NCBI GenBank assembly: GCA_017649745.1
Contig: JAGCGE010000168.1
Span: forward strand, 1-45,896
Origin: Clostridiales bacterium
GTDB taxonomy: Bacteria; Bacillota_A; Clostridia; Saccharofermentanales; Saccharofermentanaceae
DNA: 45,896 nt
Reading direction: 5' to 3'
Below are positions 3,284 through 44,013 of this stretch, in pieces. The position numbers and the translations under genes were made by a program. The stretch's first letter is position 1; each line of letters starts with the position of its first letter. Below the pieces are notes generated by a model. The model ran no database searches. It worked only from the letters and a program-made list of their open reading frames with translations, and had not been told where the DNA came from.

Positions 3284-3802
3284 ATGGGAGCCTATGAACT
3301 TTATTTAGCTCACCATGGTATTAAGGGCCAGAAATGGGGAGTTCGGCGTTATCAGAATGAGGACGGAACCCTCACTGCTGAGGGTAAAGCTCGTTACTTA
3401 AACCCCGATGGTTCGCTAAATGAGCTTGGTAAAAAAGAACTCGGCCGATCCGACAGGAAAGCTATTAAAGAAAATCAGACTAGAGCTCTGGTAAAACAAT
3501 ACAACGATGCTAATAAAAAGATGGAAGAAGCCTATAAAAAGGGCGATGAAGTGTGGGAAAAAGAAGGCGTCCACGCTAAGTATCAAGCCCTTGGTAAAAA
3601 CTGGATTCAGAGAATGAGATCTGTATCTGCAGCTCAAAAAGGTAATGGAACAAAAGAAGCCAACGAATATCTGAAATCCTACAATGCAGCAAGTAAACAC
3701 TATGAAGTTGGTGACGAGTACTGGGTCAAGGCTCAGGATATTTTTGATAAACTCGGCAAGACCGAAATCGGTAGAAAAAAAGCTGTTAAAAAGTATTCGT
3801 AA
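3284..3802 (+). CDS. HHGIxGxKWG-motif phage structural protein, copy 1
   Basis: A 172-residue protein opening with AHHGIKGQKWGVRRYQNEDG and TLTAEGKARY, followed by a long charged, probably helical region. This N-terminal motif recurs in proteins lying between terminase and portal in Firmicutes phages. The biochemical role is unsettled; I infer a minor capsid or portal-associated protein. The strong GGAGG lies 8 nt before the ATG. The next gene carries the same motif, so this pair is an old tandem duplication of the N-terminal domain with different tails. Confidence 0.65.
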   Translation: MGAYELYLAHHGIKGQKWGVRRYQNEDGTLTAEGKARYLNPDGSLNELGKKELGRSDRKAIKENQTRALVKQYNDANKKMEEAYKKGDEVWEKEGVHAKYQALGKNWIQRMRSVSAAQKGNGTKEANEYLKSYNAASKHYEVGDEYWVKAQDIFDKLGKTEIGRKKAVKKYS

Positions 3803-3817
3803 TAGGAGGATGCCATT

Positions 3818-4327
3818 ATGGATAAAAATGAGCATCTTGAACATCATGGCATTCTCGGAATGAAATGGGGCGTCAGAAGATTTCAGAACGAAGATGGCTC
3901 TCTGACGGCTCTTGGAAAAGACAGATACAATGGTGGTATAAATCCTGGATCTCCAGATCCGCCAAAGCACGCAAAAAGTGAATATGTTAAAAGAAGCCAT
4001 CCTAAGAACGCCAAATATGAATATGATTCTGGAAGTAACTCATGGAAAATGAAGGATGCCAGGCATCTTACAGATGAAGAACTAAATCGAAGAAATAGTA
4101 GACTTCAGAGAGAAAAACAATATAAGGATTTGACTGAACCTCCCATTCGTAAAGAAACGAGGCAGGCTTTAAAGAAGATATTTGTAACCACAGCTATTGG
4201 GGTAGCCGCAGGTACTGTTGCCATTAAGTACAAAGATGTTCTTGCCACTGGTGCTGAATGGCTAACTACCGGAGCTGCTAAAGAATTCTTAAAGCATACT
4301 GTTAGAGGGTCTGTATGGGTTTTATAA
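3818..4327 (+). CDS. HHGIxGxKWG-motif phage structural protein, copy 2, with possible membrane segment
   Basis: A 169-residue protein with EHHGILGMKWGVRRFQNEDG and SLTALGKDRY at its N-terminus, matching the preceding gene. The middle (residues about 45-115) is very polar and basic. A hydrophobic helix follows near 124-142 (IFVTTAIGVAAGTVAI), then a second apolar stretch. This tail differs completely from copy 1, so the shared domain is probably a docking tag carried on different effectors. The start follows TAGGAGG. The function is unknown. Confidence 0.6.
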   Translation: MDKNEHLEHHGILGMKWGVRRFQNEDGSLTALGKDRYNGGINPGSPDPPKHAKSEYVKRSHPKNAKYEYDSGSNSWKMKDARHLTDEELNRRNSRLQREKQYKDLTEPPIRKETRQALKKIFVTTAIGVAAGTVAIKYKDVLATGAEWLTTGAAKEFLKHTVRGSVWVL

Positions 4328-5744: not shown

Positions 5745-7802
5745 ATGAGCAACAAAATCCAGAAATGGGATTTTAGTGGCTGGGCAACCAAGAATGATAT
5801 GCTGTGCAAAGACGGACGAACTATTCGTAAGAACGCTTTCGCAGCCGATGACGGCAAAATTGTTCCTCTTGTTTGGATGCATCAGCACAATGATCCTATG
5901 AATGTTCTTGGTCATGCTTTGCTGGAGAACCGTGAAGAGGGTGTTTACGCCTATTGTTCCTTTAACGATAGCCCATACGGTCAGCAGGGCAAAGAAATCG
6001 TTCGTCATGGTGATGTTGTTAGCCTTAGTATTTGGGCTAATGAACTTGACCAGAATGGTGGAAACGTTCGCCATGGAAGCATCAAAGAAGTCAGTGTAGT
6101 ACTCGCTGGAGCTAATCCGGGTGCCATCATCGACTTCCCGATTCTCGCACATAGCGATGAAGAAGAGTATACAGAAGCATTCATTCGCGTTGATGAGCCT
6201 ATTGAACTTTATAACGAAAGTTCGCTTTCTCATTCCGATGATGAAAATGGCGACAATATTCAGCACGGTGAAGAAGATTCTACATCAGGAGAAGATGACC
6301 CTACGGTAGAAGAAGTTCTCGATACCATGAACGAAGAACAGCTTCAGGCAGTAGAGTTTCTGATCGGAGCAGGTCTTTCTGGAGGAGAGCTTCAGCAGTC
6401 CGATCCTAGTATGGACGGCACAGAAAATACAATCTCCCATGCTGAGGGCGAAGAAGGCGGAAGAACCGTTAACGACATCGTCGAAACAATGACCCCCATG
6501 CAGAAAAAGGTAACACAGTACTTGGTAGCTATGGCTATTCAGAGTAAAGATGGTCAGCAGACCGAAGACAAAACAGCAGAAGCTGCTGTACATTCTGACG
6601 AAGAAGGAGAGGAATTTGTAATGCCTACTAACACTTTCGAAGCTTTCGGTAATGAGAGCAAGGTATCCAAGAACTTCATGAGCCATGCTGATGGTATTGA
6701 AATCATCAAGCTGGCCAAATCCAATGGCGGCATGAGTCTGCGCGCTGCATATGATATCTATGCTGGCGATCACCAGAAAGAACTGATGCATGGTGAAAAC
6801 GATCTGGGCTTTAGGGATATCGCAACTCTGTTCCCTGACTATGCCCTGCTGAATGGTCCGGCTCCTGAAACCCTGACTACTGACCAGGGCTGGATTTCCA
6901 AAGTTCTGAAGAAGGTTCGCAAGAGCCCGAAGAGCCGTCTGCGCGTGCGCTATGCAGATGCCCGTGATATTTCCACCCGTCGCGCCCAGGGTTATGAAAA
7001 GGGAACCCAGAAGCAATTCATGGGCAACCTGTCTCTGCTGGGTCGTACTGTCGATCCTACCACTGTTTACAACCTGGATCATCTGGATCGGGACGATATC
7101 GTTGATATTACCGATTTCAACCTGGTTGACTACATGTATCAGGATCAGAACCGCAACCTGAAGGAAGAAATGGCGCGCCAGATCATGATCGGTGATGGCC
7201 GTAATGGTGATCCCGAGAATGGCAAGCCCATCGATGCCACCAAGATTATTCCGATCTGGGGTGATGATGAGCTGTTCGCCATCCATAAGGTGGTCGATGT
7301 TGCCGCTATGCGTACATCCATGAACGGTACCAACTCCACCGCGAACTTCGGTGATAACTATGTTACCGCTGAGGCCGTGCTGCAGACCATTCTGTATGCT
7401 ATGGAAGAGTACAAGGGATCCGGTTCTCCTGACTTCTACTGCACGCCCCATCTGGTCAACGTTATGCTGCTGGCCCGCGACCTGAACGGCCGTCGTATTT
7501 ATGACAATACGAATGACCTGAAGGCTTCCCTGAATGTTAACGAACTGATCACTGCCGAGCAGTTCACTGGCAAGACCAGGACTGTTGTTGTTAACGGCCA
7601 GGAGGAGACCCGTCGGCTGCTTGGTATTCTGGTTAACCTGGATGACTACACTGTCGGCGCTACCAAGGGCGGTGAAATCACTCATTTCACGGATTTCGAT
7701 ATTCGTTTCAATGAGCACCTGTCCCTGCTGGAAACCCGTTCTTCCGGTATGCTGACCCGCGTTAAGTCTGCTATCATCCTGGAGGAAGTCGTAAACCCTT
7801 AA
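5745..7802 (+). CDS. Prohead protease / scaffold-like linker / major capsid protein fusion
   Basis: A 685-residue fusion. Residues 1-130 are an HK97-type prohead protease (WMHQHNDP with His46/His48, DVVSLSIWA with Ser93/Ser95, EVSVVLAGANPGA). Residues 135-290 form an acidic linker with two related modules (TVEEVLDTMNEEQ at 187-199 and TVNDIVETMTPMQ at 241-253) and repeated H-S/G/A-D/E tetrads, probably the scaffold. Residues from about 293 (MPTNTFEAFG) are an HK97-fold major capsid protein. Codon choice shifts to CTG/CGC/AAC-rich from about 6690, as expected for the most abundant virion protein. The protease presumably cuts itself and the linker away during maturation. The stop lies on a slippery heptamer. 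Confidence 0.85.
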   Translation: MSNKIQKWDFSGWATKNDMLCKDGRTIRKNAFAADDGKIVPLVWMHQHNDPMNVLGHALLENREEGVYAYCSFNDSPYGQQGKEIVRHGDVVSLSIWANELDQNGGNVRHGSIKEVSVVLAGANPGAIIDFPILAHSDEEEYTEAFIRVDEPIELYNESSLSHSDDENGDNIQHGEEDSTSGEDDPTVEEVLDTMNEEQLQAVEFLIGAGLSGGELQQSDPSMDGTENTISHAEGEEGGRTVNDIVETMTPMQKKVTQYLVAMAIQSKDGQQTEDKTAEAAVHSDEEGEEFVMPTNTFEAFGNESKVSKNFMSHADGIEIIKLAKSNGGMSLRAAYDIYAGDHQKELMHGENDLGFRDIATLFPDYALLNGPAPETLTTDQGWISKVLKKVRKSPKSRLRVRYADARDISTRRAQGYEKGTQKQFMGNLSLLGRTVDPTTVYNLDHLDRDDIVDITDFNLVDYMYQDQNRNLKEEMARQIMIGDGRNGDPENGKPIDATKIIPIWGDDELFAIHKVVDVAAMRTSMNGTNSTANFGDNYVTAEAVLQTILYAMEEYKGSGSPDFYCTPHLVNVMLLARDLNGRRIYDNTNDLKASLNVNELITAEQFTGKTRTVVVNGQEETRRLLGILVNLDDYTVGATKGGEITHFTDFDIRFNEHLSLLETRSSGMLTRVKSAIILEEVVNP

Positions 7803-7842
7803 TTGGCTTCACTGTTGAACCGGAAGATGGTGAAGCAACAGT
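7793..7842 (+). promoter_or_regulatory. Putative -1 programmed ribosomal frameshift signal at the capsid stop codon
   Basis: Bases 7793-7799 read A AAC CCT in the capsid frame, a canonical X XXY YYZ heptamer directly followed by the TAA stop at 7800-7802. Two alternative downstream stems are visible: CTTCA 7807-7811 with TGAAG 7831-7835, and ACTGTTG 7811-7817 with CAACAGT 7836-7842. They share only base 7811. Slipping -1 enters exactly the frame of the downstream domain. Capsid frameshifts are established in Lactobacillus phage A2 and Listeria phage PSA; here it is inference from sequence. Confidence 0.75.
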
Positions 7843-8239
7843 CCTGGGAGAAACAGTAAGTGACCTGCAGGAAGACATTACCATCACTAATGGCGGTGTC
7901 TCCGGTCAGCGTAGTGTGATTAATGGTACGCTCCATTATGTCACAGACTTTACTACTTTCTCAGAAGATCCGGAACTTCAGGAAGGCAATTATCTTGCCC
8001 TTCGTGTAGACACAGATGATGTGGATGATGAAATCACTGTCGAGCTCCTCGGCGATAACACCGGAACTCCTGAGACCCTGGATGCTGATCGGAATATCGC
8101 ACTCCGCATCACAAATCCGAGGACTCAGAAGGTTCGTGTAGTTGTCAACCATACGAATATTGACGAAACAGTCAGTACAGAGGAAACGACTCTGAATCTG
8201 TCCGGTCTTATTCTGGAGTCAGCTCCTGACGAACCCTGA
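7799..8239 (+). CDS. Capsid C-terminal decoration-type domain, probably made by -1 frameshift from the capsid gene
   Basis: The frame is open from within the capsid 3' end to the TGA at 8239. Read from 7799 it gives 146 residues, beginning LIGFTVEPEDGEATVLGE and containing SGQRSVINGTLHYVTDFTTF and ELQEGNYLALRV. It is beta-rich, acidic and domain-like throughout, including the part upstream of the first in-frame start-like codon (GTG 7916), which has no ribosome binding site. That continuity argues for translation as an extension of the capsid protein, 831 residues in total. It probably decorates a fraction of capsomers. Independent initiation at 7916 would remove a third of the domain. Confidence 0.7.
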   Translation, partial: LIGFTVEPEDGEATVLGETVSDLQEDITITNGGVSGQRSVINGTLHYVTDFTTFSEDPELQEGNYLALRVDTDDVDDEITVELLGDNTGTPETLDADRNIALRITNPRTQKVRVVVNHTNIDETVSTEETTLNLSGLILESAPDEP

Positions 8240-8250
8240 GGTGAATCAAA

Positions 8251-8604
8251 ATGAAATTCTCCGGCATCATTGGCTTTTGTAAAACAGTAGAGGGAACCGG
8301 AGAATGGGGTAAAGGAAAATGGGAAGACGAGGTTACGGAAAAACCGTACAAAGGTGATATTATCCGTAACCGTCGTCGTTTTCAGGCCAATAGTGAAACT
8401 GTTCATAAAGATACTATAGTTTCGAACACTATAAGCATAACTGCGGATGATTACTTGTATAAGAATTTCGGTACTATAAAATACGTGGAATGGATGGGGC
8501 AGTATTGGGAAGTTTCTGACATAGATGTCGATCGGCCTCGTATTCTCATTTCTTTAGGAGGGATATATAATGGACCGACGGCCCGAAGTTCAGAACATGC
8601 TTGA
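8251..8604 (+). CDS. Putative head closure / head-tail stopper protein
   Basis: A 117-residue protein starting after GAGGTG. It opens MKFSGIIGFCKTVEGTGEWG and contains KPYKGDIIRNRRRFQ, then an ISITADDYLYKNFGTIKYVEW segment and a strand-rich RPRILISLGG ending. The pattern and the slot between capsid and tail terminator match head-closure proteins of siphophages. It overlaps the next gene by 35 nt. The function is inferred from order and general pattern; there is no catalytic motif. Confidence 0.6.
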   Translation: MKFSGIIGFCKTVEGTGEWGKGKWEDEVTEKPYKGDIIRNRRRFQANSETVHKDTIVSNTISITADDYLYKNFGTIKYVEWMGQYWEVSDIDVDRPRILISLGGIYNGPTARSSEHA

Positions 8605-8896: not shown

Positions 8897-9592
8897 ATGC
8901 CTAAAGCGGTATGGGACCTGGAAGGTCAGAAAGAGTACGAGGTTGGCGTAGACCACTGCATTATCTACAAATACAACTCCACTACTCAGAAGTGGGAAGG
9001 TGTTCCGTGGAATGGTATCACCAATATTACGGAAAAACCTACTGGTGCCGAGGAAACTGAACTGTGGGCAGACAACCTGAAATACGGTTCTCTGCGTGCT
9101 GCTGAAAAGTTCGAAGGAACTGTCGAAGCGTACATGTGGCCCGATGAATTTGAATCCTGTGACGGATATGCTCCTCTGGGCAATTCCGGCAATCAGGCAA
9201 AGATCAAAGTCAGCCAGCAGGCTCGTGAAACGTTCTGCCTGTTCTACAGGAATAAGATCGCGAATGATCTGAATCCTGAAGCTGGTTATCGGTATCATCT
9301 GGTGTATGGCGCGACCTGCTCTCCGAGTGAGAAGTCTCACGACACCGTGAATGACAATCCTGACGTTTCCACCTACAGCTGGGATTTCACGACTATTCCT
9401 GTGAATGTCCCGGATCGTAAGCCGACTGCCCACATCATGTTTGACAGTACGGACTTCGCGTCCTCTGCGGATCAGGCTGTTCTGCAGACCCTGCTGGATA
9501 AACTGGAAGGTACTGATGCTGGTGATGGAAAGACGGATGCTCCGCCCACTATGCCCACTCCTGCTGAACTGAAAACCCTTCTGGCAGCGTAA
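8897..9592 (+). CDS. Major tail protein (tail tube)
   Basis: A 231-residue protein with a perfect AAGGAGG. It opens MPKAVWDLEGQKEYEVGVDH and contains GSLRAAEKFEGTVEAYMWPD, YRYHLVYGATCSPSEKSHDT and the pair FTTIPV / HIMFDS, all characteristic of phi13-type major tail tube proteins. Codons are CTG-, AAC- and GAA-biased like the capsid segment, consistent with very high expression. The last 35 residues are a linker-like Asp/Gly/Pro region. An intrinsic terminator follows at once. Confidence 0.85.
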   Translation: MPKAVWDLEGQKEYEVGVDHCIIYKYNSTTQKWEGVPWNGITNITEKPTGAEETELWADNLKYGSLRAAEKFEGTVEAYMWPDEFESCDGYAPLGNSGNQAKIKVSQQARETFCLFYRNKIANDLNPEAGYRYHLVYGATCSPSEKSHDTVNDNPDVSTYSWDFTTIPVNVPDRKPTAHIMFDSTDFASSADQAVLQTLLDKLEGTDAGDGKTDAPPTMPTPAELKTLLAA

Positions 9593-9605: not shown

Positions 9606-9638
9606 GGGAGGCTCAGCGTTTGGGCCTCCCTCTTTTTT
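9606..9638 (+). terminator. Intrinsic terminator after the major tail protein
   Basis: A perfect 7-bp GC-rich stem pairs GGGAGGC (9606-9612) with GCCTCCC (9624-9630) around an 11-nt loop and is followed by TCTTTTTT. It lies inside the late operon, so it probably lowers transcription of the chaperones and tape measure relative to capsid and tail tube. Confidence 0.85.
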
Positions 9639-24591: not shown

Positions 24592-24610
24592 TAAGGAAGT
24601 GACCACAATT

Positions 24611-26821
24611 ATGGCAAGCAACATTACACATCTTACTATGGAAGAAGGAAAAGTAAGATGGTGTACCAAGGCACTGACCCAGTACGATTATGGACAGCGG
24701 CTTGTGATTGATGGGATTCAGCTTCCATCAAACTATGAAGTATTCTTCAGCAATTCAGAACGATCTGACGCCACGACATCTATAGGTGACTCTACTGGGG
24801 TTGATATTCCGGATTGGGTTCTTGAATCCGGAGAATGTATATTCATATGGGTATTTCTGCATACAGGGGCAGAAGATGGAGAAACAGTTGCTACTGGTGT
24901 AATAAGGGTTAATCCGCGTTCTAAAACAGCTAATGAACCTCCAACCCCCCAGCAATTGGATGTCATTTCGCAGCTTATGGCGGCACTTAATGTAAGTGTA
25001 GCAGAAGCTCAAGCCCTAGCTGCCGACATTCCTGTGCAAATCCAGACTGCTCTTCAGGAAGCCAAGGATTCTGGAGAATTCAATGGTCCTAAAGGTGATC
25101 CTGGAGTTCCAGGTAGGGATGGCGAGCCTGGTCCTAAAGGTGACCCTGGAGAAAAGGGTGATAAAGGCGATCCTGGTGTTCCTGGACAGGATGGAGCACC
25201 TGGTCCTAAGGGCGATAAAGGCGATCCTTTTACCGTTAAGAAAACATTCGCTTCGATCTATGAGATGGAGCATTATGTCCCCGGCCCCGGTGATGTGGTA
25301 ATAAATCCTGGTGACTTTGTAATGATTACTACAACCGTAGAGGACCCAGATAATGCTAAACTCTACATTAAGGGTAACGGAGAGTTCGAATATCATTTCA
25401 TAACCGACTTATCAGGTGCACAGGGCATGAAAGGCGATAAAGGTGATCCTGGAGTGCCAGGTAGGGATGGTGTATGGTCTGATGTCATTAAAGATGGCGT
25501 AGCTTTCGAAGATTCTATTACATCTACTTTCTCCGCACACAAACTTTGGGAAAAGTTCGTTAACAAAGTACATGCTGTAATTACTAATAGTCTGACCATT
25601 GGTGTTAGGCGAGCTGGCTCTACAGTAGGATCACAGTCTGTTGCTGTAGGAGCCCCATATGGAGATCCAAATAAAGGTCCACTAGCTAGCGGTATGAACG
25701 CCGTAGCCATAGGTAACGCTTCAGAAGCAACTGGTGGTGAATCTGCCGCACTTAGTGGCGGAAAGGCTTCAGGACAGGATTCCGTAGCCATGCAGTTGGG
25801 CCAGGCCAGCGGCGTTATGGCATTCGCTGCCGGTTATAATTGTGAGGCAACAAACCGGGGATCTGTTGCACTTGGAGGATATGGAAATAAAGCTAAAGGA
25901 AAACATTCCAGAGCCGAGGGTTATGATAATTTAGTTACAGGAGAGGGAGCTACTGTGAGTGGCAAAGGAAATATAGCCTATGCTAACTATTCTGATGTTA
26001 AGGGATGCTATTGTGCACCGGATCCGTCGTTTGAGTCCGCTCCATTGTTTGAACATAAAATATACTACCCTGGAAATATTATAAAGCATCTCGATCTTGC
26101 TACCGGATTATATATGACTTTATTCAGATGCGTCACTGAAGACGATTGCACTAATAAAGATGACATCAATCTTAACTTCTGGGTAGTAGATGAAGAAATG
26201 ACATTTGCTGAAATCGTCGGAAACGGCACTGGACCAGAAGCTATGCAACGGTCTAATGCTCGCACTTTGGACTGGGAAGGGAATGAACGGCTCAAAGGAA
26301 ATCTATATGTTCAGTCTGGAAAATCTGGAGGGGGCGGCACTCGCGTTGCGATGATAACCGAACTTCCAAGAATTGCCACTATTTCAGAAGTTCGACAGAT
26401 GATGGAAGATTATGATAAAGGAGATGACGATGAAATGCTGGTCGAAGCCAACTGGGGGTATGATCCCTCTTTTTCAACGGGATATTATTTTGAAACCGCA
26501 GATGATGCTGCTGATATTGCGGCGGCGTATATGCAGGGTAAAAATGTAGTATTTAAATTTAATAATAATATGGTTACTGTCGACGGATATAATTCATATC
26601 CAACCAGTTATTCTATTGATGCGCCGGCTTATGTGTCTCTGATAGCATATTATCCGGAACGGACGAGAGGTGGAGTCATTATACCTCAACAGTTCCATGT
26701 TGCAACTCGCTCTAACCAGTGTAGCACCACCATGGGAACGGATCACCTTGATGTAGACTATATTATTTCAGCTTCTGTACATGCCAATGGAAAACTTAGG
26801 TTCGCAATTTACATTGATTAA
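24611..26821 (+). CDS. Tail fibre with collagen-like and YadA-head-like repeats
   Basis: A 736-residue fibre from ATG 24611, 9 nt after AAGGAAGTG. Residues 1-130 form a baseplate-attachment-like domain (YDYGQRLVIDGIQLPSNYEV, then SGECIFIWVFLHTGAEDGET). Collagen-type Gly-X-Y triplets follow at DNA 25087-25232 and again near 25426-25470 (GDPGVPGRDG in both). Residues about 365-465 carry YadA-head-like strand repeats (AVAIGNASEATG, SVALGGYGNKAKG). The remainder is a strand-rich C-terminal domain. It is probably a trimeric host-recognition fibre. The collagen triplets suggest a triple-helical shaft. Confidence 0.8.
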   Translation: MASNITHLTMEEGKVRWCTKALTQYDYGQRLVIDGIQLPSNYEVFFSNSERSDATTSIGDSTGVDIPDWVLESGECIFIWVFLHTGAEDGETVATGVIRVNPRSKTANEPPTPQQLDVISQLMAALNVSVAEAQALAADIPVQIQTALQEAKDSGEFNGPKGDPGVPGRDGEPGPKGDPGEKGDKGDPGVPGQDGAPGPKGDKGDPFTVKKTFASIYEMEHYVPGPGDVVINPGDFVMITTTVEDPDNAKLYIKGNGEFEYHFITDLSGAQGMKGDKGDPGVPGRDGVWSDVIKDGVAFEDSITSTFSAHKLWEKFVNKVHAVITNSLTIGVRRAGSTVGSQSVAVGAPYGDPNKGPLASGMNAVAIGNASEATGGESAALSGGKASGQDSVAMQLGQASGVMAFAAGYNCEATNRGSVALGGYGNKAKGKHSRAEGYDNLVTGEGATVSGKGNIAYANYSDVKGCYCAPDPSFESAPLFEHKIYYPGNIIKHLDLATGLYMTLFRCVTEDDCTNKDDINLNFWVVDEEMTFAEIVGNGTGPEAMQRSNARTLDWEGNERLKGNLYVQSGKSGGGGTRVAMITELPRIATISEVRQMMEDYDKGDDDEMLVEANWGYDPSFSTGYYFETADDAADIAAAYMQGKNVVFKFNNNMVTVDGYNSYPTSYSIDAPAYVSLIAYYPERTRGGVIIPQQFHVATRSNQCSTTMGTDHLDVDYIISASVHANGKLRFAIYID

Positions 26822-26837: not shown

Positions 26838-28937
26838 ATGGCGGTCGATCTTTCTAAAGTCATGGATCTTGCCGATGGCTTGGAAATGTATAAAGACCTC
26901 AGGGGAAGGATTGATGAGGTTCCAACCCCTGAGGATCCTCCTGTTGTTGGATTGCTGATTAACAGCTTGGCGATGCCGATTAACGATAATAAGTTTATTA
27001 ACTTCGGCGTTCAAAATGGCGTTAGACTTGTAATGAACGGCTCCGGCACAGGTTTTAACCTGGAAGCTGATATACAGGATATTCAGGTTGATGGGACTAG
27101 TGTTCTTCAAAATGGAATAGCAAATATTCCTATGGGAAACAGTAGCAGATTAGGCGTATTCAAAATTAGCAACAACGAAGGTGTCGGTGCCTGGAGCAAT
27201 GGATGTCTTAGTATTAACGAAGCATCTTCCGCACAAATAAAAGCCGGGGCAACCGCTGCAAAGCCGATTGTTCCATACAATCAGCACCAATCCGCTTTTT
27301 ATGCTTTAGCCAAAGCGGCCGGAGCAGATATGGCTCAATCCTCGAATCCTGTTGGCACCTATACAGATGCTGCCAAACAAGCCATTCTGAAGATGCTCGG
27401 TCTTGACGGTATCCTGGGCGACTTCGAGAACTCAGCAGTAGCCAGCAAAGCTTATGCTATCGGTGAGACATTTGTCTATAACGGTAAGCGCTATCGTGCC
27501 ACGGCTGCTATTGCCATCAGTGACGTCATTGCTCCTGGGACGAATTGCGAGCTTACACCGATTGATGGACATTATGTCAGGGATACGGATTATGCTGGAA
27601 GTACCGTGCCTGGTATCGTTTGCGTCAGAGATTCATATGGCATACGAATGGATCCAACTTCTCATGCTCTTGTGATACAAAATGCTACTGGAAATCCTGT
27701 TAAGCTCGGCACTGATATTTATAAACCATTGGTCCCGAGCATTCAGCATCAGTCCGTTTTCTTTGGTCTATCAAAGGCGGCTGGCGTAGACCTTGGTAAT
27801 GAAACTGTTACAGTTGGTACATATCCTGCAACAGCTAAAGCAGCTATTCTTGCTATGCTGGGTGCGGTAAAAGATGTTCAAATTAACGGAACAACTATTC
27901 TGACTGACGGCATAGCGAATGTGCCGTTAATGACCACAAGTACACCGGGCGTTGCTATGAAAGGGCCGGGATTATATATAAGTAACGGGACGCTTGGTGT
28001 AAACACTTCATCTTCAAACGATATAAAAGGTGGGTTAACCGGAACATTTACACAAGTTTCAAAACAGCACGAAGCAACCTTTTACGCTCTCGCCAAACTC
28101 GCCGGAGCAGACATGGCACAGTCTTCTAATCCTGTCGGCACATTTACTGATGCAGCTAAAGTTGCTATTCAGAAAATGTTTGGTTTTGATGGCATTTTTG
28201 GTGACTATGAGCTTTCTGCAACGGCTAGTAAAGCTTATGCTGTTGGCGAGACATTTATATTTAATGGTAATCGCTACAGAGCAACTACAGCTATAGCTAT
28301 AAATGACGTTCTTGCTCCTGGAACAAATTGCGTGCTGGATCCAATTGATGAGCATTATGTCAGGGATACGGATATTGCTTCGAGCACAAAGCTAGGGCTT
28401 GTCAAACCCCTTGGTAATGCTGGTGTTTATGTGACATCGCAAGGGAATCTTTGTACAGATAAAGCCACAGCTAATGGAATTAAGGCCGGAAACAATGCTT
28501 ATAATCCCATTGTCCCAGAACTTCAGCACGTATCCTCCTTCTACGCTCTTTCTAAAGCTGCTGGAGTAGACCTCGCAAACATTCAGGATGTTGTGGTTGG
28601 CGTCTATCCTCAGTCTTCTAAAACAGCCATCCAAACTATGCTCGGTATCGAGGCTGATATTCCTCTGGTGGAAACCATAACCGGAGCTACTGCCAGCATC
28701 ACAGGTATGCCGAATGTGCGTTATATTTGTGATACGGCTATTTCTGAGCTCACGATTACGCCTCCTGCATCCGGGTCGATTGTTGTGCGGTTTACTGCTG
28801 GATCTAACTGTATTGTGGCTCTGCCTCAGACTGTGAAGCTGCCTGAATGGTTTGATATTTCCAGTCTCGAAGCAGGAACTACTTATGAAATAATTATTAC
28901 TGATGGAGTGTACGGAGGGGTGATGTCATGGGCTTAA
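26838..28937 (+). CDS. Tail fibre / receptor-binding-type protein with internal duplication
   Basis: A 699-residue protein with an N-terminal MAVDLSKVMDLADGLEMYKD. A module, QHQSAFYALAKAAGADMAQS to YVRDTD, occurs twice (DNA 27282-27593 and 28065-28376), with shorter QHQS / QHVS relatives near 27747 and 28523. It ends with a compact strand-rich domain (SGSIVVRFTAGSNCIVALP). It lies between two other fibre genes and overlaps the next by 10 nt. The serial modules probably build a shaft; the C-terminal domain may be the tip. Confidence 0.75.
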   Translation: MAVDLSKVMDLADGLEMYKDLRGRIDEVPTPEDPPVVGLLINSLAMPINDNKFINFGVQNGVRLVMNGSGTGFNLEADIQDIQVDGTSVLQNGIANIPMGNSSRLGVFKISNNEGVGAWSNGCLSINEASSAQIKAGATAAKPIVPYNQHQSAFYALAKAAGADMAQSSNPVGTYTDAAKQAILKMLGLDGILGDFENSAVASKAYAIGETFVYNGKRYRATAAIAISDVIAPGTNCELTPIDGHYVRDTDYAGSTVPGIVCVRDSYGIRMDPTSHALVIQNATGNPVKLGTDIYKPLVPSIQHQSVFFGLSKAAGVDLGNETVTVGTYPATAKAAILAMLGAVKDVQINGTTILTDGIANVPLMTTSTPGVAMKGPGLYISNGTLGVNTSSSNDIKGGLTGTFTQVSKQHEATFYALAKLAGADMAQSSNPVGTFTDAAKVAIQKMFGFDGIFGDYELSATASKAYAVGETFIFNGNRYRATTAIAINDVLAPGTNCVLDPIDEHYVRDTDIASSTKLGLVKPLGNAGVYVTSQGNLCTDKATANGIKAGNNAYNPIVPELQHVSSFYALSKAAGVDLANIQDVVVGVYPQSSKTAIQTMLGIEADIPLVETITGATASITGMPNVRYICDTAISELTITPPASGSIVVRFTAGSNCIVALPQTVKLPEWFDISSLEAGTTYEIIITDGVYGGVMSWA
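27282..28376 (+). repeat. Duplicated 312-bp module in the fibre gene
   Basis: The copies at 27282-27593 and 28065-28376 encode nearly the same 104 residues (FYALAKxAGADMAQSSNPVG, SKAYAxGETF, APGTNC, HYVRDTD). Many differences are synonymous, so the duplication is not recent. The spacing is 783 bp. Confidence 0.8.
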
Positions 28938-34022: not shown

Positions 34023-34098
34023 GGTCCGTTAGCTCAAGTGGTCGAGCACCCGGCTCATAACCGGTCGGCTCTAGGTTCAAATCCTAGACGGACCACCA
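34023..34098 (+). tRNA. tRNA with CAT anticodon (Met, or Ile2 if modified)
   Basis: A full cloverleaf: acceptor GGTCCGT (34023-34029) with ACGGACC (34088-34094); D-stem GCTC/GAGC; anticodon loop CTCATAA (34054-34060) giving CAT; T-arm CTAGG-TTCAAAT-CCTAG; and an encoded CCA (34096-34098). The top anticodon pair 27-43 (C-T) is mismatched. An elongator Met or a lysidine-modified Ile2 cannot be told apart by eye. Confidence 0.95.
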
Positions 34099-35248: not shown

Positions 35249-36403
35249 ATGAATGAGTCGAACCTTGAAAACGGTATAATTCGCGAAACGGTAAATGGTA
35301 TGAAACGAGTTAAACTCCCAATTCCGGAAGAATACGGTGGTGGATGGGCAACTGGAAGCTCTGTTAAAGATGCCGTAGATAATCTTATAAAACGGATTAA
35401 GGAGAAAATAAATCAACCTAAAGCTAATACTATTACTTTTTCAGAATGCGCTGAGAAATGGTTTGAGCTTAAAAGTTCATCCAATAAAGCGGCCACTACT
35501 ATTGAAAACTATAGAATGTTTTTATGTAGTCGTATTATACCATTCTTCGGCTGTAATGTTGGCATTGATAAAGTAAAACCTTCAGATATACAAGAGTTCT
35601 TTATTGCCTACAAGAATATGTCGAAGTCATTTAATCATCAATGCAAAACTATTCTAAAAGGGATATTTGAGTATGCTTATAGGAACTCGTATATCGACAA
35701 AAATCCTATGCAGTTTACCTATGAAACTAGTAAGAAAACTGGTAAAAAAGTAATATTGCAGGATAATGATCTTATAGACGTAATTCGACAATTGGATTAT
35801 GCATACGATTATGGTGAGCTTAAAGCTATGGACTATTTGTACGGCTGCTTTTTATGTTTCACATCTCTTAGAAGAGGAGAGATCTTAGCATTAAACTGGT
35901 GGGATTTTGACGTTGATAAAAAAGAAATTAATATCTGCAAAAATCTCACATTTCCTAATGGACAGAATAAGGGTAAGTTAACGACACCTAAAGATGATAG
36001 TTACAGAACAGTATATCTCAGTCAAGGTTTATACGAGAGAATACTTAAATGCTACGGTCTTCCTAAAACACACCTTTATAGTCCTGTTTTCTATGGAGAT
36101 GAAGCGCTTACGGATTGTATGCGTCCATACTTAACAAGATCACAGTTTATGTGTATGTGGAAACGCATAAATAAGGTAATCGATCTCAAGGGGGCCACGT
36201 CTCATTCGTTCAGGTCCTCATATGCTTCTATGATGAATGCTCATTGCCCGTCTGCTGATCCGAAGGTTATTCAGTCTCAATTAGGACATAAGACTCCAGA
36301 TCTAGCTATGGAGGTTTATGTTAAGAATAACCAAACTAAGACAAGGCAGGCGGAAAAAGAGCTCGATTCATATTTATGCAAATGGCTTGGAACATCAAAT
36401 TGA
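35249..36403 (+). CDS. int: Tyrosine recombinase integrase
   Basis: A 384-residue integrase. The N-terminal domain is of the AP2-like/core-binding type (EYGGGWATGSSVKDAVDNLI, then the SAM-like core KANTITFSECAEKWFELK). The catalytic domain shows SLRRGEILAL with Arg208, TTPKDDSYRTV with Lys248, SHSFRSSYA with His319 and Arg322, QLGHKTP with His347 and the nucleophile Tyr357 in MEVYVKN. All active-site residues are present. It integrates or excises the phage; the attP candidate lies 130 nt downstream. The start follows GAAAGGACG. It shares its direction with the late genes. Confidence 0.95.
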   Translation: MNESNLENGIIRETVNGMKRVKLPIPEEYGGGWATGSSVKDAVDNLIKRIKEKINQPKANTITFSECAEKWFELKSSSNKAATTIENYRMFLCSRIIPFFGCNVGIDKVKPSDIQEFFIAYKNMSKSFNHQCKTILKGIFEYAYRNSYIDKNPMQFTYETSKKTGKKVILQDNDLIDVIRQLDYAYDYGELKAMDYLYGCFLCFTSLRRGEILALNWWDFDVDKKEINICKNLTFPNGQNKGKLTTPKDDSYRTVYLSQGLYERILKCYGLPKTHLYSPVFYGDEALTDCMRPYLTRSQFMCMWKRINKVIDLKGATSHSFRSSYASMMNAHCPSADPKVIQSQLGHKTPDLAMEVYVKNNQTKTRQAEKELDSYLCKWLGTSN

Positions 36404-42952: not shown

Positions 42953-43210
42953 ATGAGCGCTATCGCTATGAATGAACTTGAAAAGAAAGACCAGGAATTC
43001 ATCGTTTCATCGACACAAACGAAAATAAGTACAAAATGCCGCCGGTGTTCGCATGACAGCGGTCAACTTGTATACCACTGGATTAAAGATGGTGATAGTG
43101 ATATTAAAATGTATCGTGTGCGCTGCGTTAACTGCGGGCATATGACTACCGCACATCGGTCGTCCGACCTGGCGATCAGAGTATGGGCAGCTGAATGGTC
43201 AACCAAATAA
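42953..43210 (+). CDS. Lar-like zinc-ribbon protein
   Basis: An 85-residue zinc ribbon: KCRRCSHDSG, then YRVRCVNCGHMTTAHRSSDL and AIRVWAAEW. The C-x2-C / C-x2-C-G spacing and terminal Trp-containing helix resemble the Lar (restriction alleviation) fold, which protects phage DNA; the call is tentative because many zinc ribbons look alike. CAGGAGG precedes it, and ThyX starts 14 nt after its stop. Confidence 0.5.
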   Translation: MSAIAMNELEKKDQEFIVSSTQTKISTKCRRCSHDSGQLVYHWIKDGDSDIKMYRVRCVNCGHMTTAHRSSDLAIRVWAAEWSTK

Positions 43211-43224
43211 TAGGAGGCAAATGT

Positions 43225-44013
43225 ATGAAACTCGCAAAGGCAGGTTTTGAATACCACATCCCTGTAAATCCCGGACTGGTGATATATTCTATCGAGAAGG
43301 CCGGGCGTAAATGCTATAAGAGCCAGATGTCTGAAAACACCGAAGAGGGCGCCAAGTTCATTAAAGAAGTTCTGATCGCCCATAAGCATGAATCCGTTCT
43401 GGAGCATGCGAGCATTTCCCTGGATATTACGTGCGACACCGGTGTCAGCCACGAACTCGTGAGGCATCGTCTGGCAAGTTTCTCTCAGGAGAGCACCCGT
43501 TATTGTAACTATTCCAAAGACAAATTCGGCCATGAGATTACTGTGATCCGTCCCGTCTGGTTTAACAAAATTACCAACGAGCGGGCCGACGAGATTATAC
43601 GGAACGCGAAGGACGGGTTCAAAAGCACCCTGAAAACTCCTATGACCGACCTGGAACGTGAATTCGTTGCGTGGTATCTCTCCTGTGAGAATTCTGAATG
43701 GGAGTATTTCGAAATGCTGGAAAACGGAGCTTCTCCCCAGCAGGCAAGGGATGTGCTCCCTAAGAGCCTGAAAACCGAGGTCGTAATGACAGCCAACATC
43801 CGCGAGTGGCGTCACATCCTGAAACTGCGCGCGGCCGGGGAAGCTGGTAAACCGCATCCTCAGATGCTTGAAGTTATGGTGCCTGTCCTTAAGGACTTCC
43901 AGCAGAAGCTTCCGGCACTGTTCGAAGATATTGTACCTATGGACATTCCTGATGATGGTTATACCTGGGATCCTCCGATTGATGACGAGGATCTGATTAT
44001 AAAGGAGGACTAA
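43225..44013 (+). CDS. thyX: Flavin-dependent thymidylate synthase ThyX
   Basis: A 262-residue enzyme that makes dTMP from dUMP using FAD/NADPH and methylenetetrahydrofolate. The signature RHRLASFSQESTR (residues 80-92) matches RHRxxSxxxxSxR exactly, and the flanking HKHESVLEHASIS segment (53-65) is also typical. ATG 43225 follows AGGAGG by 7 nt. In phages it supplies thymidine for DNA synthesis and often sits in nucleotide-metabolism or early operons. The C-terminal 25 residues are acidic. Confidence 0.95.
   Translation: MKLAKAGFEYHIPVNPGLVIYSIEKAGRKCYKSQMSENTEEGAKFIKEVLIAHKHESVLEHASISLDITCDTGVSHELVRHRLASFSQESTRYCNYSKDKFGHEITVIRPVWFNKITNERADEIIRNAKDGFKSTLKTPMTDLEREFVAWYLSCENSEWEYFEMLENGASPQQARDVLPKSLKTEVVMTANIREWRHILKLRAAGEAGKPHPQMLEVMVPVLKDFQQKLPALFEDIVPMDIPDDGYTWDPPIDDEDLIIKED

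Follow-up and report, generated by a model that had tools for sequence, protein, structure and literature searches.

The capsid protein gp8 of phage phi29 features an HK97 fold with a C-terminal immunoglobulin-like (Ig-like) domain and, to our knowledge, is made without a frameshift. Work by Fraser from 2006 on "promiscuity and deceit" is said to describe Ig-like domains on different virion proteins, some frameshifted and some in frame. For gene 10 of phages T3 and T7, we know of no protease fusion. In excerpts of a review (PMC5009743), frameshifting supplies a proportion of the C-terminal Ig-like domains on varied phage proteins, with −1 shifts in A2, T3, and A118/A500 and a +1 shift in PSA; the in-frame, −1, and +1 variants are suggested there to reflect domains landing in any frame by chance. 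The same excerpts cover three systems close to the one described here: Lactobacillus phage A2 (Garcia 2004), in which a second capsid component arises by −1 frameshifting on the mRNA of the major head protein, its extension being counted as Ig-like; gene 10 of T3/T7, in which frameshifting gives a longer second capsid form, the extension of T7 not being Ig-like; and the Listeria phages PSA, A118, and A500, which frameshift in capsid and tail genes by −1 or +1. An excerpt of PMC13370021 describes the use of a −1 frameshifted minor capsid protein of phage K1F for display. The present locus lies in a 45,896-nucleotide stretch of DNA—the window—that makes up contig JAGCGE010000168.1 of a Clostridiales bacterium (assembly GCA_017649745.1). 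As judged from its sequence and that of its relatives, the capsid gene of the window very probably yields two proteins from one start, a −1 slip adding a C-terminal, probably Ig-like domain to a fraction of the product. A second capsid form would thus arise by frameshifting, as in A2 and T3/T7; the difference from A2 is that the parent in the window is a protease-scaffold-capsid fusion.

The capsid open reading frame (ORF) occupies 5745..7802 of the forward strand, on which all features of the junction lie, and encodes the unshifted short product of 685 residues, a fusion of protease, scaffold, and major capsid protein (PHROG 3270, E 1.8e-185; Peptidase_S78, E 7.3e-5). The prohead serine protease domain spans residues 14–130 (5784..6134; PF04586, Peptidase_S78; 23.4 bits at a cut-off of 21), and the stretch that best matches PHROG 3270, residues 227–683 (6423..7793), includes the major capsid part. 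The parent is therefore a major virion protein with an S78-type protease N-terminal to an HK97-fold capsid—the fold being seen on the relative L023, a homologous in-frame fusion with Foldseek matches to the capsids of phi29, HK97, T5, and GTA. The top PDB match of L023 is phi29 gp8, at just 10–11% identity. Proteins like the window capsid occur in 244 GenBank phage records, 240 of them covering at least 80% of the query, and many of the 40 capsid-matching records listed carry the annotation "major capsid and protease fusion protein."

The capsid ORF ends in GTA AAC CCT TAA. The slippery heptamer A AAC CCT (7793..7799) is in phase, and the TAA that ends the unshifted product (7800..7802) doubles as the first half of a 6-nt spacer (7800–7805) leading to a hairpin with arms at 7806..7816 and 7826..7836. 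Where the 0 and −1 frames overlap, the junction thus has an X XXY YYZ heptamer in phase, with a hairpin 6 nt downstream; a stimulatory RNA structure typically lies about 5–9 nt downstream of a −1 slip site. The −1 frame is open over 7799–8236 (146 codons) up to the stop TGA at 8237–8239, and this extension (7799..8239) encodes a 146-residue domain lacking a good start of its own. Its first ATG, GTG, or TTG is the GTG at 7916 (residue 40), with a Shine–Dalgarno match of 3 nt; at 17 other gene starts in the window, the match is 4–8 nt in 15 cases and 3 nt in two. A protein started at GTG 7916 would lack two of the predicted strands along with the short helix that separates them. An earlier note on this DNA had proposed the frameshift from the letters of the window, and its coordinates for the capsid ORF, the heptamer, and the −1 frame (5745–7802, 7793–7799, and 7799–8239) are correct. 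It was also right about the length of the open −1 frame from the slip point, the missing ribosome-binding site, and the truncation that an internal start would cause; the heptamer is the canonical one it named, but directly abuts the TAA instead of ending one base before it. A GGAGG at 7781..7785, 7 nt 5′ of the slip site, is a possible internal Shine–Dalgarno stimulator, a reading confounded with the LEE codons.

Most ribosomes would end at TAA 7800 and release the 685-residue protease-scaffold-capsid precursor. A fraction would pause at the hairpin 6 nt downstream and slip back by one base on A AAC CCT, the Asn and Pro tRNAs re-pairing with AAA and CCC; reading would then go on to 8239 and give a product of 831 residues with the C-terminal Ig-like domain, so that a minority of the shell subunits would display it.

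Relatives of the junction were first hinted at by seven IMG/VR loci with related capsids, in six of which the junction could be read. The 60% identical capsid of L003 ends in GCA AAC CCT CAG TAA and those of L006 and L007 (35%) in GCC CCA AAA GCG TAG, in each case with the domain next in the −1 frame; L001, L002, and L004 are devoid of the domain, and the frame after their capsid stop looks, by eye, like the DUF7253 gene of the window. The 146-residue domain alone found no relatives in an IMG/VR search, and alignments were needed to find them. A search of proteins with the domain gave 26 relatives, many starting at differing internal positions: P0003, the database entry that represents the domain of the window itself, begins at the internal GTG, and P0018 starts within the −1 frame of the capsid C-terminus with a K-P-L that would fit AAA CCC TTG or a similar sequence. 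Through the alignments A1 and A2, 6 loci, then 79 (from the best 80 of 122 relatives), and then 27 were collected, an incomplete set. After removal of six same-contig repeats, the domain-less L001, L002, and L004, and L005, which is cut short before the domain, 109 rows including the window were kept. The domain lies in the −1 frame in 77 of these, in the +1 frame in four, in a "fused" arrangement in 24—a bin that merely means that no out-of-frame parent was found and that takes in L117 with 7 open codons upstream—and separately in four. Out-of-frame overlaps with the upstream ORF are thus −1 in 77 of 81 cases and +1 in 4 of 81. Collapsing parents at 95% identity and merging identical junctions leaves 57 non-redundant −1 junctions.

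An in-phase XXXYYYZ heptamer stands at the parent stop in 37 of the 57 junctions, the window included, where 0.38 would be expected from the rate in the rest of the parent ORFs (0.22%, or 52 of 23204 codon positions). With the frame shifted by one or by two, in-phase heptamers occur in 0 of the 57 junctions in either case. The heptamer of the window, AAACCCT, is also the commonest (21 of 57 junctions), followed by CCCAAAA and AAATTTT (five each), CCCTTTT (three), and AAACCCA, AAAAAAC, and GGGAAAA (one each). Three records in a set of 50,697 GenBank phage records contain the domain, all in the −1 frame and none from a Lactobacillus phage; the sequence at the stop is G GGG GGT TAA in L119 and L121 and T TTA AAA TAA in L120. 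L119 is Flavonifractor phage Chenonceau (3033–4360), in which the major head gene is followed by the domain annotated as a "hypothetical protein"; in our reading of the sequence, this protein would be a −1 frameshift extension of the major head protein. After the G GGG GGT TAA of L119, a GGGTCTGAC/GTCAGACCC hairpin is visible by eye. L121, of human faecal origin, has a slip site identical to that of L119.

Three of the four +1 loci (L069, L070, and L091) carry ACA CCC TAG at the junction. Their parent is a capsid of the PHROG 544 type (L069 by scan, L070 and L091 by similarity), and the fourth locus, L085, has a 155-residue parent with no PHROG match. Known +1 sites use CCC followed by a stop and resemble ACA CCC TAG (excerpts of PMC5009743 and PMC4759559), the Listeria phage site being a CCC next to the stop of a tail gene (PMC5009743, in excerpt); unlike in the Listeria phages, the +1 cases here are a minority of an otherwise −1 family.

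The hairpin 3′ of the slip site is conserved and covaries. In the window, it comprises 11 base pairs at −13.5 kcal/mol (z −2.65), a value matched by 3 of 200 shuffles; over the longer stretch 7800–7860, z is only −1.6, and 15 of 200 shuffles match it. The best helix begins 4–6 nt past the slip site in 48 of 56 junctions, the overall range of 4–10 nt being bounded by the search range itself (2–10 nt). Over these 56 frameshift junctions, the hairpin score has a mean of 8.05 and a median of 8.4 versus 4.2 in mononucleotide shuffles, and it reaches at least 7 in 41 of 56 versus 2.9% of shuffles. Among the 28 sequences that share the register of the window, the 7-bp core is 96.9% paired, with double changes at all 7 pairs; pairing falls to 77.8% when partners are shuffled among sequences and to 41–53% (maximum 53.1%) when one arm is slid by 1–3 columns. 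RNAalifold, unaided, places a 10-bp stem at the same position. A second register class of 11 junctions is 98.9% paired versus 85.3% shuffled and at most 48.9% slid, with 5 of 8 pairs doubly changed. The earlier note had seen "short alternative stems" at a workable spacing; the spacing (6 nt) stands, and a single 11-bp hairpin fits better than several stems. It had also suggested folding the region as a pseudoknot. A candidate pairing ACTGTTG with CAACAGT and overlapping the hairpin was seen by eye only, and no pseudoknot is supported; covariation and RNAalifold, which cannot show pseudoknots, give a conserved plain hairpin.

Because the hairpin arms encode the first residues of the domain, protein conservation could be suspected behind the hairpin, and in-frame fusions serve as a control. 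The hairpin is not found at the matching place in 15 in-frame head or tail fusions with the same protein start, which score 3.0–5.4 (shuffles, mean 4.4); the 23 scored loci of the "fused" bin average 4.3. The hairpin is a putative frameshift stimulator.

The 24 "fused" loci were sorted by hand into 13 with a protease-capsid, one with another capsid family, one with a tail-tube protein, four separate genes, four unassigned, and L118, a long, apparently non-phage surface protein bearing the domain; the 15 in-frame head/tail fusions are 11 distinct ones at 95% identity. Counted with the four loci binned as separate, 13 of the 109 have some other layout than a −1, +1, or in-frame head/tail one. 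A protein search with the domain part of L023 (789 residues) gave 144 clusters, and among the 120 listed (478–1004 residues), PF04586 is present in 91 and the HK97-capsid family PF05065 alone in four more. Going by these sequences, capsid and domain are joined as a single polypeptide in many phages—the homology that the earlier note had proposed to look for. Among the listed clusters, P0138, P0139, P0140, P0147, and P0148 (800–1004 residues) carry the Ig-like domain together with a PF23847 (DUF7211) motif. Two adjacent genes of the window between terminase and portal (3284–3802 and 3818–4327) both match DUF7211 (PF23847).

The domain itself is modelled as an Ig/Fn3-like β-sandwich. Its ORF in the window is intact; alignment A1 contains 13 relatives, and identity to 12 of them is 61–83%. 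A Pfam scan gave no significant match for it and weak, scattered ones among 85 aligned members, and a PDB sequence search gave none (best E 0.57). From the predicted fold and the known analogues, a role in surface decoration or adhesion is inferred, and the domain would be a surface-exposed one.

The proposal that the domain is instead a separate protein, made by restart at or near the capsid stop (a coupled start at AUU 7802, or GUG 7916), is very improbable. It can draw on the overlap of the domain ORF with the capsid stop, the GGAGG upstream at 7781, and an ATG near the stop in 10 of 57 junctions, one of them with a 5-nt Shine–Dalgarno match. However, neither the window nor 33 of the 57 junctions have an ATG, GTG, or TTG within −20 to +21 of the parent stop, a near start with a Shine–Dalgarno match of at least 4 occurs in 1 of 57, and GTG 7916, with its 3-nt match, would lose about a quarter of the domain. 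Restart also leaves unexplained the in-phase heptamers in 37 of 57 junctions and in none of the wrong frames, the recurrent spacing, the hairpin, and the in-frame fusions. It is scarcely credible that an in-frame fusion has decayed or been mis-assembled (through a fixed indel or a sequencing error) into the −1 frame and that nothing is made from it: in-frame fusions of both parts are indeed common, but the −1 arrangement recurs at 57 non-redundant junctions, where the slip sites vary and the hairpin, which the in-frame head/tail fusions do not show, covaries; the domain ORF is also intact and conserved among its A1 relatives. It is somewhat less improbable, though still unlikely, that frameshifting is real and the longer product is a rare by-product or serves assembly control instead of decorating the surface. 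The domain is kept on several sequence-distinct capsid groups and a tail-tube family; many phages have it on every subunit through in-frame fusion, and others encode it in a gene of its own behind the capsid. A by-product would account for this spread less well than a surface function.

Several observations weigh against the frameshift reading. Twenty of the 57 junctions lack a heptamer at the stop: eight have C CCT alone, four T TTT alone, five G GGG GAA, two a heptamer at −22, and one (L090) none of these. The non-canonical G GGG GAA recurs immediately 5′ of the stop, in tail genes as well as capsid genes (L035, L104, L106, L107, and L111). The ATG codons near the stop noted above include TAATGA in L015 and L017, where restart would be possible, and the 5-nt Shine–Dalgarno match belongs to L094. 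The hairpin score is below 5 in 5 of 56 junctions (L048, L044, L089, L114, and L006) and exactly 5 in five more, the separate-gene locus L072 scores 7.0, and a laxer anchor raises L072 to 10.4 and the fusion L020 to 7.4. In the 11-row class, one of five measures, that of pair types, is not above shuffles (221 of 500), and the covariation alignments A6 and A7 (28 and 11 rows) were picked by register, 18 of 57 junctions staying outside the counts. Homologues in separate genes, named by the earlier note as the case that would speak against an extension, are present at eight loci, four binned as separate and four with the domain at the end of a separate ORF; they are a minority and, with about 110–170 open codons 5′ of the domain, have a different architecture. 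The extension of the capsid by a −1 frameshift, as the earlier note had it, is nonetheless supported by the in-frame homologues, the heptamer statistics, and the covarying hairpin; at the loci examined, slip signal and hairpin accompany the out-of-frame layout. From the anatomy of the junction, its conservation and covariation, and the natural in-frame fusions, we infer that slippage takes place, at an efficiency that would leave the unshifted product in the majority, and that the longer form would be part of virions.

Slip site, in-frame stop, hairpin, and Ig-like domain likely form one portable cassette, which, on sequence grounds, phages of gut Clostridia would pass between unrelated capsid and tail genes. 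The parents of the domain fall into sequence-distinct groups—for the head PHROG 3270, 10, 267/422/544 (partly the same proteins), 212, and 29, and for the major tail protein PHROG 2645—with classes set by hand from the PHROG hits of representatives, blastp clusters, and sequence. Besides the window, 26 parents were scanned, 25 with a head or tail PHROG and L085 with none. The tail-tube parents of L104/L105 and the capsid parent of L111 have no blastp match at E ≤10, yet blastn aligns 335 bases at 74% (E 4e-58), from the first base of the G GGG GAA that they have in common across the stop, the hairpin, and the domain. Likewise, the tail parents of L094/L021 and the capsid parent of L095 give no blastp match beyond short ones at chance level (E of 1.0 or worse), with nucleotide homology starting 6 bases 5′ of the shared A AAC CCT (71–72%, E 5e-51 to 8e-48). 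In the control pair of window and L095, both capsids, homology runs through the junction. Ungapped upstream identity alone does not prove parents unrelated, since these two capsids, a few codons apart, also give 28%; hence the gapped comparison. In the tail/capsid pairs, homology breaks at the slip site with the stop codon on the shared side, which argues for joint transfer of slip site, stop, hairpin, and domain; alternatively, transfer may have started just downstream, with convergence on the slip site.

A tree of the domain (84 rows) needs 24 changes of parent class versus a minimum of 8, although it rests on 129 columns with 36 of 81 inner branches below 80% support, the well-supported ones forcing four protease-capsid and two tail label changes. 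Among pairs with a domain identity of at least 55%, 26 of 93 have the same heptamer, versus 17 of 190 pairs below 40%; the pairs are non-independent and the difference is only suggestive. Attached 3′ to a major head or tail-tube gene, such a cassette would bring with it the stop that ends the normal product as well as the signal by which the decorated form is made. Unlike in the view of chance landing (PMC5009743, in excerpt), slip site, stop, and hairpin are themselves common to unrelated parents here. The 3′ limit of the cassette in the window is set by the next gene (DUF7253; 8251..8604), which lies outside it and has its own Shine–Dalgarno sequence. The major tail protein of the window (8897–9592) belongs to PHROG 2645, the family that bears the cassette in L015, L021, L094, L104, and L105; its gene ends directly in a stop followed by a terminator-like repeat, GGGAGGC/GCCTCCC with a T run (9606–9638), and carries no cassette.

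Elsewhere in the window, a phage integrase gene (35249–36403) and a Thy1-type thymidylate synthase gene (43195–44013) together suggest a temperate phage. A tRNA-Met gene with a CAT anticodon lies 5′ of the integrase gene (34023–34098), and an Rfam scan of the window matched only a tRNA. A collagen-like repeat protein (24599–26821) and a protein with a weak CBM5/12 match (26838–28937) are perhaps tail-tip or host-binding parts.

The principle of the system is already known from A2, T3, and PSA, and the earlier note's suggestion of novelty went too far if meant as new in kind, given that a review already covers Ig-like domains added C-terminally to capsid and tail proteins by frameshifting (PMC5009743, in excerpt). 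Excerpts of PMC8008677 and PMC10885494 describe no case of the window type, and among the titles and abstract beginnings that searches of an open-licence library listed, none deals with this family of domains, with frameshifting behind a protease-capsid fusion, or with a cassette of slip site and domain that moves. New here are the domain family lacking a Pfam match, the embedded covarying hairpin, and the evidence of slip site, stop, hairpin, and domain moving jointly between tail and capsid genes.

The junctions provide a ready-made collection of natural −1 sites built from few parts. Annotation can overlook such extensions: P0003 begins at the internal GTG, and in Chenonceau the domain is entered as a "hypothetical protein" of its own. 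Whether recoding signals travel with the domains that depend on them can be put to a direct test here, given a hairpin that covaries and is not seen in the in-frame fusions and a signal common to tail and capsid genes. For the phages of this family, the arrangement suggests that a surface domain may be gained in one step while not all subunits have to carry it.

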